Source of the DNA: Bdellovibrionales bacterium
GTDB lineage: Bacteria; Bdellovibrionota; Bdellovibrionia; Bdellovibrionales; Bdellovibrionaceae
Assembly: GCA_018266295.1 (NCBI GenBank)
Contig: JAFEAQ010000017.1
Location: forward strand, 1 to 42,325
DNA: 42,325 bases
Direction of reading: 5' to 3'
Shown here piece after piece: positions 3,153-9,804 of this stretch. Made by a program: the position numbers and the translations under genes. Position 1 is the stretch's first letter. The number at the start of each line of letters is the position of its first letter. The notes under the pieces were generated by a model. It was not told the origin of the DNA and made no database searches. It saw only the letters and a program-made list of their open reading frames with translations.

Positions 3153-4220
3153 ATGACGCCGAAGAAAAATAAAAATTTAAAACGCGAAAATAATAACCGA
3201 CGGACTTTTTTAAAACGCGCGCTCTCTTCCCTCATTCTCTTTGGTGCTCAAAAAGCTTCGGCCTTCTTGGTTCCTTTTGCTTTCTTCAAAAAACAACCGA
3301 TCCCAACCACTCTCTGGGGATGGGGCTTTAATGGCTATGGCCAGGTGGGCGACACTTCGCTTATTAACAGAAGCGCGCCCGTGCAAATCGGTGCCCTCAC
3401 CGATTGGGATTCGATCAGCGCCGGCAGTCTGCACACGGTCGGCGTGAAATCCAATGGCACGCTCTGGGCTTGGGGCGATAACACCACCGGCAACTTAGGA
3501 ATCGGAACGATCATCGGAAAAAGCTCGCCGGTGCAAGTGGGTTCTTCGACCGACTGGATGCAAGCAAGTGCCGGCGGAATCTATACGGCCGCTGAACACT
3601 ACAACACTCTTGCGATTAAGACTGACGGCACACTGTGGGCCTGGGGAAACGCCGCTCAGGGACAGCTCGGTGATAGCACTGTGGTTTCAAAAAGCTCACC
3701 GATCCAAATCGGAGCCCTCACCGACTGGAGTAAAGTCAGCGCCGGCGAGTCGCACGTTCTTGCTATCAAAACAGATGGCACACTGTGGGCCTGGGGCGAT
3801 AATACTTACGGACAAATTGGTGATAACACTGTCGTTGCGAAAAGTTCGCCGGTACAAGTCGGTGCGCTTACAACCTGGGCTTTCGCTTCTGCCGGCGGCG
3901 ATCGTTGTTACGCGATTAAAACCGACGGCACTCTTTGGGTTTGGGGTTCCAACAATTCAGGCTCGCTCGGCATCGGCAATACCGTGAATAAGAGTTCACC
4001 GACTCAGGTTGGAGCGCTGACCGACTGGAGTTTTGTTGAAGCTGGCCACACTCATGTAGCGGCAATAAAAAGCAACAACACTCTTTGGGCCTGGGGACAA
4101 AACAACAAAGGCCAGCTCGGTGACGGCACAATTGCTTCAAAAAGTTCACCAGTGCAAATCAGTTCTCTGGCGTGGAGAAAAGTCAGTGCCGGAGAGTCTT
4201 TCTCGGTGGCGACGAAGTGA
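3153..4220 (+). CDS. Tat-exported RCC1-repeat beta-propeller protein
   Basis: The product is 355 residues. The N-terminus has a long basic region and a twin-arginine motif, NRRTFLK at about residues 16-22, then a hydrophobic stretch and ASA, so Tat-dependent export of a folded protein is likely. Residues about 50-355 are six tandem repeats of roughly 50 residues, each beginning TLWAWG or a close variant and containing SSPVQ and SAG, which is the RCC1/BLIP-II signature. Canonical RCC1 propellers have seven blades, so this one has one fewer or closes with the divergent ends. Such propellers bind proteins; BLIP-II binds beta-lactamase. The partner here is unknown. The ATG lacks a clear ribosome site. 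Confidence 0.85.
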   Translation: MTPKKNKNLKRENNNRRTFLKRALSSLILFGAQKASAFLVPFAFFKKQPIPTTLWGWGFNGYGQVGDTSLINRSAPVQIGALTDWDSISAGSLHTVGVKSNGTLWAWGDNTTGNLGIGTIIGKSSPVQVGSSTDWMQASAGGIYTAAEHYNTLAIKTDGTLWAWGNAAQGQLGDSTVVSKSSPIQIGALTDWSKVSAGESHVLAIKTDGTLWAWGDNTYGQIGDNTVVAKSSPVQVGALTTWAFASAGGDRCYAIKTDGTLWVWGSNNSGSLGIGNTVNKSSPTQVGALTDWSFVEAGHTHVAAIKSNNTLWAWGQNNKGQLGDGTIASKSSPVQISSLAWRKVSAGESFSVATK

Positions 4221-7471: not shown

Positions 7472-7750
7472 TTACTGAGACCAACCTTCTTTTACAAAGA
7501 TTTTACGGCAACTGTCGGCTTCGAGATATTTTACAAACTCCTCTGCCAACGCTTTCTGTTTGGTGCCCTTCGCAAGGGCCGTGCCCATCGAGCGATAGAT
7601 CGTGAGCTCCGGTTCTGTTTTCACAATCTCGGCCGTATCAGGATTTCTTGTGCCCCAGATATTAAACACAAGCCACGCATCGATCGTCTTATCTTCGTTC
7701 CACTTCTTTTCAGCCTCACCAGTGTTCTTTGCGGCATAGACGATATTCAT
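7472..7750 (-). pseudogene. C-terminal remnant of an AcfC-like solute-binding protein
   Basis: The 92 codons match only the C-terminal third of periplasmic substrate-binding proteins of the AcfC/molybdate-binding type: AKNTGEAEKKW, DAWLVFNIW, then IYRSMGTALAK and FVKYLEA...IFVKEGW. The full family is about 250 residues with a signal peptide. Reading upstream in frame gives about 15 plausible residues (…LKGAFR) before an in-frame TAG near 7790, and there is no ribosome site at the ATG. The 5' two thirds are therefore missing. No transporter genes are adjacent, consistent with decay after deletion. Confidence 0.65.
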
Positions 7751-7857: not shown

Positions 7858-7950
7858 GCTGCAAATTTTCCCCAAAACGCTGCAAAAATGCAGCGATCGA
7901 TGCAGTTTTTGCAGCACTCTGATTGACTTCCCTTCTGAGCGCTGCAAAAA
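7858..7950. promoter_or_regulatory. Cluster of GCTGCAAA sites upstream of the TIGR02147 gene
   Basis: GCTGCAAA occurs at 7858-7865, GCTGCAAAAA at 7879-7888, its inverse TTTTTGCAGC at 7906-7915, and GCTGCAAAAA again at 7941-7950, eight bases before the ATG at 7959. The middle pair is a perfect 10-bp inverted repeat around a 17-bp centre that contains two TGCA inner arms. The first two sites are 21 bp apart, two helical turns. This looks like an operator array, and the adjacent helix-turn-helix protein is the obvious candidate to bind it. Confidence 0.45.
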
Positions 7951-7958
7951 ACACCCTC

Positions 7959-8705
7959 ATGCTGCATCAATACCTTCTCCAAGAATTTGAACGCCGAAGC
8001 CGTACAAATCCCAAGTATTCTCTGAGAGCCTTTGCGCGCGACTTAGAAATCCACTCGGGCACCCTTTCTAGCATCCTTCATCAGCGCCGCGCGGTGGGCA
8101 CAAAGGTGCTTGCGCATCTTCTGAAGAAATTACCGCTGACTGCGATGGAAAAGAAAAGAATGCTTTCCGAGCTGGTGGCGCCTGCATCCGTAAGATCTGA
8201 CAAATTCCCAGTCATTGGCGAAGAAGCTCTCAGCATCATCAAGGACTGGGAACATTTCGCCATCTTGTCTTACCTGCAGATTCGCAAAGCTAAAAAGACT
8301 CCTATGGATATCGCGAAGGCACTGCACCTGCCGCAAGCCAAAGTCCTTCGCGCCCTCTCAAACCTTGAAAGAACCGATTTGCTGAAGCGTGAAGGCGACC
8401 AATATAAAATCACTCAAAAGAACTTAGCGACATCGAATGGAATTCCAAGTGCGGCACTGCGCGAAGCTCATGCACAGTATATCGATAAAGCTAAAAGCGC
8501 GCTCAACGACTTTACGACGACGGAACGTGATATTACAGGCCGAACTTTTGCAATTGCCAGGAAGAATCTGCCAAAGGCAAAAGAACTCATCCAACAATTC
8601 CGCTCAGACCTTTCAGAGCTTCTCGCGAATGGCGAAGCGGACGAAGTCTATCGACTCAATATTCAGCTATTCCCCCTCACTCACACTAAGCATGCGGAGA
8701 ATTAA
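7959..8705 (+). CDS. TIGR02147-family DNA-binding regulator
   Basis: The product is 248 residues from the ATG at 7959; a TTG 36 nt upstream is in frame but less likely, and neither has a clear ribosome site. The N-terminus (LLQEFERR...NPKYSLRAFARDLEIHSGTLSSIL) is the helix-turn-helix opening typical of TIGR02147 proteins, which are abundant in Fibrobacter and Bdellovibrio. The middle carries a second winged-helix-like unit (MDIAKALHLPQAKVLRALS), then the C-terminal domain of the family, ending in an RLNIQLFPLT strand. It is probably a transcription factor that controls its partner: the next gene, for an exported protein, starts one base after its stop codon. Confidence 0.88.
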   Translation: MLHQYLLQEFERRSRTNPKYSLRAFARDLEIHSGTLSSILHQRRAVGTKVLAHLLKKLPLTAMEKKRMLSELVAPASVRSDKFPVIGEEALSIIKDWEHFAILSYLQIRKAKKTPMDIAKALHLPQAKVLRALSNLERTDLLKREGDQYKITQKNLATSNGIPSAALREAHAQYIDKAKSALNDFTTTERDITGRTFAIARKNLPKAKELIQQFRSDLSELLANGEADEVYRLNIQLFPLTHTKHAEN

Positions 8706-8706
8706 A

Positions 8707-9804
8707 ATGAAAAAGATTTTTTACGCTTTCGCCGCTCTTGTCTGTACGACTTCACTGCAAGCTCTCGCTCAGATTGATGGCACTGGTTACGACCACGGCA
8801 ACGGTGGTGACCCGTGTGAGATGCGCTTTAAAACAGTTGCTGCGGATATTCAATCTTGGCTCACCAAAGGGGGCGCTCAAAGTTTGGTATTACCAAAGGG
8901 AGTGTCATATACAAACTACCTCAATGGCATGCTTGGTAAAATCGAAACAGCCAAAGTAAGCTGCGTTGATGAAAAGCTCTTCATTGAAGGAGCAGAAAAA
9001 ACCTGTGTGAACTTCACGGAGGCTAACGGCGACTTCCGCATTCAATGCAACATCAGCCGATTCACGGCAACCTCTGAGTCTAATCAATATGTTTTGGTTC
9101 ATCATGAATACGCAGGTCTTGCAGGTTTTGAGACAAACACGGGCGAGGCTTCAAATTATGTGATTTCGTCGCAAATCACCGACTATCTTGAAAACGCCAT
9201 CGTCAAAAAACTGGCGGTGAAACCACCCCCTGCTTTGGAAAAGAATCCTTTCGATCCGGCAATATGCACAGATGCGAATATGACTCCTGAAGAGGTTTAT
9301 AAAACCTTTTCAGCGAATGAAAAGGCCCTCGTTCCTAGTTTCACGATTTACACGCGCGAGCGCTGGTGCAGTAATCCCAACGGGTGCACCGAGTGGAAAT
9401 CTATTCGCAATCAAATCACGCATAACGAAAACGCTCCGGTTCCTAGAAAATATCTGGGAATTCCCAACGACGGCACGATCAACTATTTGTCCCCGGCGTA
9501 CATGGATCCGAGCGTGACTCTTTCAAGCACGCAGGACACTGGCGTTGGCATCTACTTGAATTGCAAACCCGGTGGCGAGCAAGTGACATGCACAGTCTCA
9601 TCGACACCGTTCTTAGAAAATATTGGTGAAGCAAAGGGCACAATTGGTGCGCACTGCACGCGTTTGAACATCCAGCATCCAGGATTCTTTGCAGACCGCG
9701 CTTTCTTTGAAAGCGAATTGATTTTTAAATATTCTTATGAATCGGGTCTGATTCCGAACGCTCCTTGGATTGAGCGCGAGTCCGTCATCATTTCAAGATA
9801 CTAG
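8707..9804 (+). CDS. Exported protein paired with the TIGR02147 regulator
   Basis: The product is 365 residues. The frame is open further upstream, but the ATG at 8707 has GGAGA about 8 bp before it and gives a clean signal peptide ending ALAQ. Residues about 25-170 contain conserved cysteines and the motif HHEYAGLAGFE; I know this motif from exported Bdellovibrio proteins but not its function. The HHE triplet could bind metal, which is conjecture. The C-terminal half contains further paired cysteines (RWCSNPNGC, LNCKP...VTC) and suggests a disulphide-bonded second domain. It is translationally coupled to the regulator gene and followed by a GC-rich hairpin. Confidence 0.8.
   Translation: MKKIFYAFAALVCTTSLQALAQIDGTGYDHGNGGDPCEMRFKTVAADIQSWLTKGGAQSLVLPKGVSYTNYLNGMLGKIETAKVSCVDEKLFIEGAEKTCVNFTEANGDFRIQCNISRFTATSESNQYVLVHHEYAGLAGFETNTGEASNYVISSQITDYLENAIVKKLAVKPPPALEKNPFDPAICTDANMTPEEVYKTFSANEKALVPSFTIYTRERWCSNPNGCTEWKSIRNQITHNENAPVPRKYLGIPNDGTINYLSPAYMDPSVTLSSTQDTGVGIYLNCKPGGEQVTCTVSSTPFLENIGEAKGTIGAHCTRLNIQHPGFFADRAFFESELIFKYSYESGLIPNAPWIERESVIISRY

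Follow-up and report, generated by a model that had tools for sequence, protein, structure and literature searches.

Introduction

Cro/CI-type regulators and the C proteins of restriction-modification systems autoregulate by means of operator arrays located near the -35 element, and several C proteins have leaderless messages. The N-terminal fold of these proteins (e.g. C.Esp1396I) resembles, with middling scores only, the one modelled for the protein under study, a TIGR02147/DUF4423 regulator encoded within a 42,325-nucleotide stretch of a Bdellovibrionales genome (contig JAFEAQ010000017.1), the whole of which is here referred to as the window. However, this protein adds a C-terminal winged helix and the half-sites in front of its gene are different; the GACT-n-AGTC box belongs to the C proteins, and the window array, having no AGTC within 7858-7966, does not qualify as one. 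HigA antitoxins are also comparable, both in HTH sequence (2icp, E=0.0011) and in fold (Z about 7), but no toxin partner is seen and the regulator is a 248-residue protein with a DUF4423 region. The operators of LacI-family paralogues likewise follow a few helix residues; comparative regulon papers on that family are PMC2329647 and PMC4052901. TIGR02147 proteins differ from the LacI family in both fold and half-site.

The TIGR02147 family is widespread in the phylum, the 4.2 Mb genome under study alone having nearly 40 members (43 match rows), and no described operator was found for it. Indeed, in the open-access literature searched we found no description of a TIGR02147 operator or function, in line with the remark made in an earlier sequence-only reading that no defined binding motif is known for the family; this is weak evidence, as most subscription journals were outside the scope of the search. 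In that literature TIGR02147 was not mentioned at all, and DUF4423 only once, in a table where B. bacteriovorus Bd3700 (DUF4423) figures among the proteins upregulated when the bacterium grows inside its prey (PMC12546842). Autoregulation and helix-operator codes are known in other families, and the TIGR02147 operator and code are likely to be undescribed. A code by which three bases depend on three to five residues would make the binding site of each regulator predictable, tell paralogues apart and indicate their targets, exported proteins and lipoproteins, the TIGR02147 set being natural data on paralogous regulators which diverge without cross-talk.

The regulator and its recognition helix

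The window protein meets the curated cut-off of the NCBIfam TIGR02147 model (105.4 bits against 50, the best stretch being model positions 89-271) and the gathering cut-off of DUF4423 (PF14394, 153.4 bits against 30). The cut-off of the MarR_2 profile is not met (26.9 bits against 27), the resemblance to MarR being restricted to the winged-helix fold. According to the structure model, the N-terminus forms a five-helix HTH whose recognition helix spans residues 33-40, and residues from about 85 to 160 form a winged helix of the MarR/ArsR kind. As the structure search with the whole chain was swamped by the winged helix, the N-terminal domain was modelled on its own (pLDDT 92.6), suggesting an XRE/HigA/C-protein-like fold. 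Comparison of this model with HigA, C.Esp1396I, SinR and P22 c2 yielded middling scores (Z 6-8), and the best E value in a Foldseek search of the domain was only 0.066. We denote the positions of the recognition helix as p1-p8, p1-p4 of the window protein being H, S, G and T (32-35) and p7 being S38.

Half-sites in front of the regulator gene

Four copies of GCTGCAAA lie in front of the regulator gene, three on the forward strand (7858-7865, 7879-7886 and 7941-7948) and one on the reverse strand (7908-7915; Table 1). The sequence-only reading had reported four copies, the first two 21 bp apart and the last 8 bases before the start codon, and these positions were confirmed, as GCTGCAAAAA stops at 7950, 8 nt ahead of the regulator ATG at 7959. 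What it had also described as a 10-bp palindrome is an inverted repeat, whose 10-nt arms (7879-7888 and 7906-7915) match perfectly and are set 17 nt apart. Beyond the four copies there are two GCTGCA half-sites (7889-7894 on the reverse strand and 7961-7966 on the forward strand), GCTGCA being seen six times in the array. The direct copies begin at 7858, 7879, 7941 and 7961, with spacings of 21, 62 and 20, which places them roughly on one helix face.

Table 1. Coordinates, within the window, of the array, the regulator and the gene that follows
Feature	Position	Strand	Remarks
Half-site 1, GCTGCA (GCTGCAAA)	7858..7865	+	
Half-site 2, GCTGCA	7879..7886	+	With half-site 3 makes GCTGCAAAAATGCAGC
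Half-site 3, TGCAGC	7889..7894	-	Overlooked in the sequence-only reading
Partial half-site, TGCAG	7901..7905	-	Read directly; overlooked in the same reading
Extended half-site GAGTGCTGCAAAAA	7906..7919	-	Forward strand reads TTTTTGCAGCACTC
Possible -35, TTGACT	7923..7928	+	Weak -10 CAAAAA/AAAAAA near 7945-7951; promoter unconfirmed
Extended half-site GAGCGCTGCAAAAA	7937..7950	+	Downstream of the possible -35, ahead of the start codon
GCTGCA across the start codon	7961..7966	+	Overlooked in the same reading
TIGR02147/DUF4423 regulator, 248 aa	7959..8705	+	HTH at the N-terminus and, at about 85-160, a winged helix resembling MarR
Recognition helix codons H32 S33 G34 T35 L36 S37 S38 I39 L40	8052..8078	+	
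Exported protein (HHEYAGL type)	8707..9804	+	Presumed same operon as the regulator

The stretch TTTTTGCAGCACTC is found identically in the promoter of the paralogue L035, and in the window it is followed by CACTCTG, one base away from the family centre CACTTTG. There is no third half-site after the TGCAGC-ACTCT of the window, and the canonical layout of three half-sites with an ACTTT centre is absent. The window array is atypical in layout, with about six half-sites and spacings that differ from the canonical ones.

The clustering of GCTGCAAA in the window is not due to chance. It is the sole 8-mer with four copies in 110 bp in the real window, and when the window was simulated 100 times with a third-order Markov model, no 8-mer ever reached this number; over the 4.22 Mb of the genome there are 374 copies on both strands, about one per 11 kb. 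A longer motif, GAGYGCTGCAAAAA, which was defined from the window only, via the inverted pair 7906-7922 / 7934-7950, occurs in exactly three places of the 4.2 Mb genome, two of them in the window and one at C19:242348. The latter lies around 150 bp upstream of a second TIGR02147 gene, whose recognition helix, NSGTLSAIL, is very close to HSGTLSSIL of the window protein. This paralogue is distant, being absent from the list of genome matches with E values of 1e-20 or lower, and the other TIGR02147 paralogues of the genome have recognition helices that differ from these two. The sequence GCTGCAAATGAATTTGCAGC at C11:820999 was treated as chance, since it apparently falls within the reading frame of an exported protein, where the signal peptide is encoded.

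The promoter positions given in Table 1 are inferred, and a consensus promoter scan returned no forward-strand promoter near the regulator gene. Across the family, the arrays are mostly just upstream of the expected -35 position. After the canonical arrays, in which 41-45 nt separate the end of the third half-site from the start codon for 15 of the 19 genes, there are -35/-10-like elements, such as TTGATA-n17-TAATAT-n7-ATG at L174, the average promoter score behind these arrays being barely above that of shuffles (7.6 vs 6.9). As the promoter evidence is weak, a leaderless or near-leaderless message in the window is put forward only as a suggestion.

Arrays across the family

No close orthologue of the window regulator was found among the relatives searched (best identity 39%), and for this reason the comparison was made by recognition helix. 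TIGR02147 genes with their upstream DNA were gathered from the same order and then from a second class of the phylum, the survey comprising about 260 promoters from this single phylum. Inverted-repeat arrays sit near -75 to -45, a common form being GNNGCA-n(4-9)-TGCNNC-n5-GNNGCA, near -72/-60. A 6-bp inverted repeat is present between -130 and -1 in 123 of 161 genes, whereas shuffling leads one to expect 44 and a control stretch yields 60, and inverted GNNGCA pairs with equal NN are found in this interval in 33 of 155 genes, against 2/155 between -300 and -171. Many TIGR02147 genes are without a clear array (strict caller 74/161).

The half-site differs among helix classes: HAT goes with GGTGCA, PSS with GTGGCA, PAT with GTTGCA or GTAGCA, SST with GCGGCA, QST with GAGGCA, VGT with GATGCA and SSGx with GGAGCA. 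The remaining classes have inverted repeats of other half-sites in the same place (SPGA with GTTCCA), and the SPAQ helix is accompanied by GTTTCA in both classes of the phylum. A check of the motif at other TIGR02147 loci, as the sequence-only reading had suggested, was thus done by recognition helix, and GCTGCA was present in the matching class: at least two GCTGCA boxes precede 7 of 10 genes with the helix [HND][SN]G[TS], against 4 of the 152 others (Fisher p=7e-8), the other three of the ten lacking two boxes. When the window gene and its paralogue are left out, the proportion is 5/8 (p=8e-6).

A DNA-first pattern, containing no helix information and not requiring the three NN to agree, was matched 15 times in 369 genomes, whereas the reversed-pattern control had no match. 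The three half-sites are equal in 14/15 matches and 13/15 lie directly before TIGR02147 genes; one is a canonical GCTGCA array before an HSGSLSQIL gene in another family, and one precedes an exported-protein gene, a TIGR02147 gene of identical half-site being 2.2 kb away. The match at L237 has unequal half-sites and is probably chance. A looser pattern resulted in 46 matches in 141 genomes, and the 16 with three equal NN, a count made by eye, are all before TIGR02147 genes (16/16).

Correspondence between helix residues and half-site bases

Half-sites are written GN1N2N3CA, N1-N3 being bases 2-4. The NN are identical in 21 of 23 gene pairs with the same p1p2p3, where 1.85 would be expected and the maximum in 10,000 shuffles is 12. 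Among genes whose N-terminus is otherwise 30-40% identical, NN is common to 19 of 23 same-helix pairs and to 7 of 310 different-helix pairs, whereas with at least 55% identity in the rest of the N-terminus and a different helix it is common to only 2 of 17.

Using a palindrome caller blind to the helix, on 56 genes from two classes of the phylum, N1 is observed to track p2 (z 13.5), proline going with T (26/27), histidine with G (6/6) and serine with C (6/7). N2 tracks p3 (z 6.9), p7 (9.2) and p1 (6.0), and N3 tracks p4 (3.3), p7 (6.7) and p1 (5.5); no association with half-site bases was noted for p5, p6 or p8. An exception, serine with G in the SSGx class, needs p1. The equivalent residues of 434 repressor and Cro (27, 28, 29 and 33) face the DNA. 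For the helix of the window protein, HSGTLS, the residues H, S, G and T predict GCTGCA, which matches the sites observed.

A prediction fixed beforehand for a different class was right in 5 of 6 testable genes (p=0.017). This test is small, strict GNNGCA covering only 6 of 100 genes there and many using other half-sites; in the sixth gene, L281, the same site has perhaps been read one base off. Moreover, some analysis choices were post hoc, and some site assignments are on the opposite strand or shifted by one base. A bolder reading, which we regard as likely, is that TIGR02147 regulators have a single operator architecture in common and obey a near-linear code, in which p2, p3 and p4 correspond to bases 2, 3 and 4 and are modified by p1 and p7. 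If true, protein sequence would allow both operators and regulons to be predicted for a family that is uncharacterised.

As a separate observation, GCTGCA or GCAGCA boxes are present upstream of L011 and L186 (helices SSTHLS, PSGTVS), which the simple code does not predict.

Proposed mode of regulation

The cluster of sites, their family-wide occurrence, the helix covariation and the fold prediction together make it very likely that the TIGR02147 protein at 7959-8705 uses the sites in the window as its autoregulatory operator. The sequence-only reading had named them as a candidate operator of a TIGR02147 protein; sequence comparison supports it, and the proposal is in all likelihood one case of an operator system that extends over the family and depends on the helix. 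Binding is inferred, as there are no binding or expression data. Points that weigh against the proposal are the atypical layout of the window array, the three genes of its own helix class that lack two boxes, the many family members without a clear array, and the weak promoter evidence.

According to this proposal, the N-terminal HTH, whose modelled fold is Cro/CI/HigA-like, would read the GCTGCA half-sites, Ser33 (p2), Gly34 (p3) and Thr35 (p4) would set the bases C, T and G of GN1N2N3CA, and His32 (p1) and Ser38 (p7) would add to the base choice. Several subunits would probably sit side by side on a promoter without recognisable Shine-Dalgarno, the mRNA being possibly near-leaderless. The C-terminal DUF4423 winged-helix region would probably serve in assembly or signal sensing, and might conceivably bind DNA too. 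The sign of the regulation is likewise inferred: since one half-site follows the possible -35 ahead of the start codon and a further one covers that codon, we lean slightly towards a net repression, by the regulator, of its own gene and of the exported-protein gene downstream, and activation from the upstream sites cannot be excluded.

Alternative explanations

It could be argued that a different, perhaps global, regulator binds these sites and controls the TIGR02147 genes, a possibility favoured by the identical 14-mer ahead of two distant paralogues and by the similar palindromes ahead of other exported-protein genes in the genome. However, the half-site varies gene by gene with the helix of the downstream gene, independently of the rest of the N-terminus, and one shared regulator would give one motif, which renders this explanation unlikely. 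Less likely still is that helix and promoter were merely co-inherited from a common ancestor without functional coupling. All the genes are paralogues, and both features are common to some orthologue groups; yet half-sites differ between proteins that are similar outside the helix and unlike within it (2/17 in common) and agree between dissimilar proteins whose helix is identical (19/23), and the DNA-first matches are consistent across families and classes.

The repeats might also act as RNA hairpins, in a leader attenuator or in translational control, considering that the inverted half-sites could make two mutually exclusive stems and that the distance from array to start is nearly constant (41-45 nt in 15/19 genes). 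Against this, the bases covary with HTH recognition-helix residues and not within stems alone, the array is apparently upstream of the -35, and a search for an intrinsic terminator found none, so that we consider this reading very improbable. An operator read by the TIGR02147 protein itself is the explanation retained.

Neighbouring genes and putative targets

Homologues of the exported protein encoded behind the regulator occur in other TIGR02147 loci. GTGCTGC...GCAGCAC palindromes are also found before two genes of the same genome, one (C14:151522) encoding a DUF1588/DUF1592/cytochrome-c protein that carries the motif FQNCG and the other (C6:195727) being lipoprotein-like. A further lipoprotein gene has GCTGCAAATTTGCAGC (C6:194788) some 120 bp upstream. 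That these exported-protein and lipoprotein genes are further targets is inferred and no more than possible, either of the two GCTGCA-class regulators being conceivable. In another genome, two GTGGCA operators of one class (L226 and L238, G153:C65:1695 and 3915) are separated by 2.2 kb; a TIGR02147 operon follows one of them and another exported-protein gene the other, which makes them a candidate regulator-target pair.

Beside the regulator, a 92-residue reading frame on the reverse strand (7472-7750) matches just the C-terminal part of SBP_bac_11 (profile positions 137-226 of 227), and is likely a truncated substrate-binding-protein remnant. Finally, the exported proteins at 3153-4220, L275:3123-4166(-) and L276:1524-2807(-) have a PF-x-F-x-K-x-P-like stretch right after the signal peptide (VPFAFFKKQP, VPFTFWKKP, IPFAFMKQP) and differ in the remaining sequence (RCC1 repeats, glycine-rich, other); this stretch could possibly be a sorting or anchoring tag.
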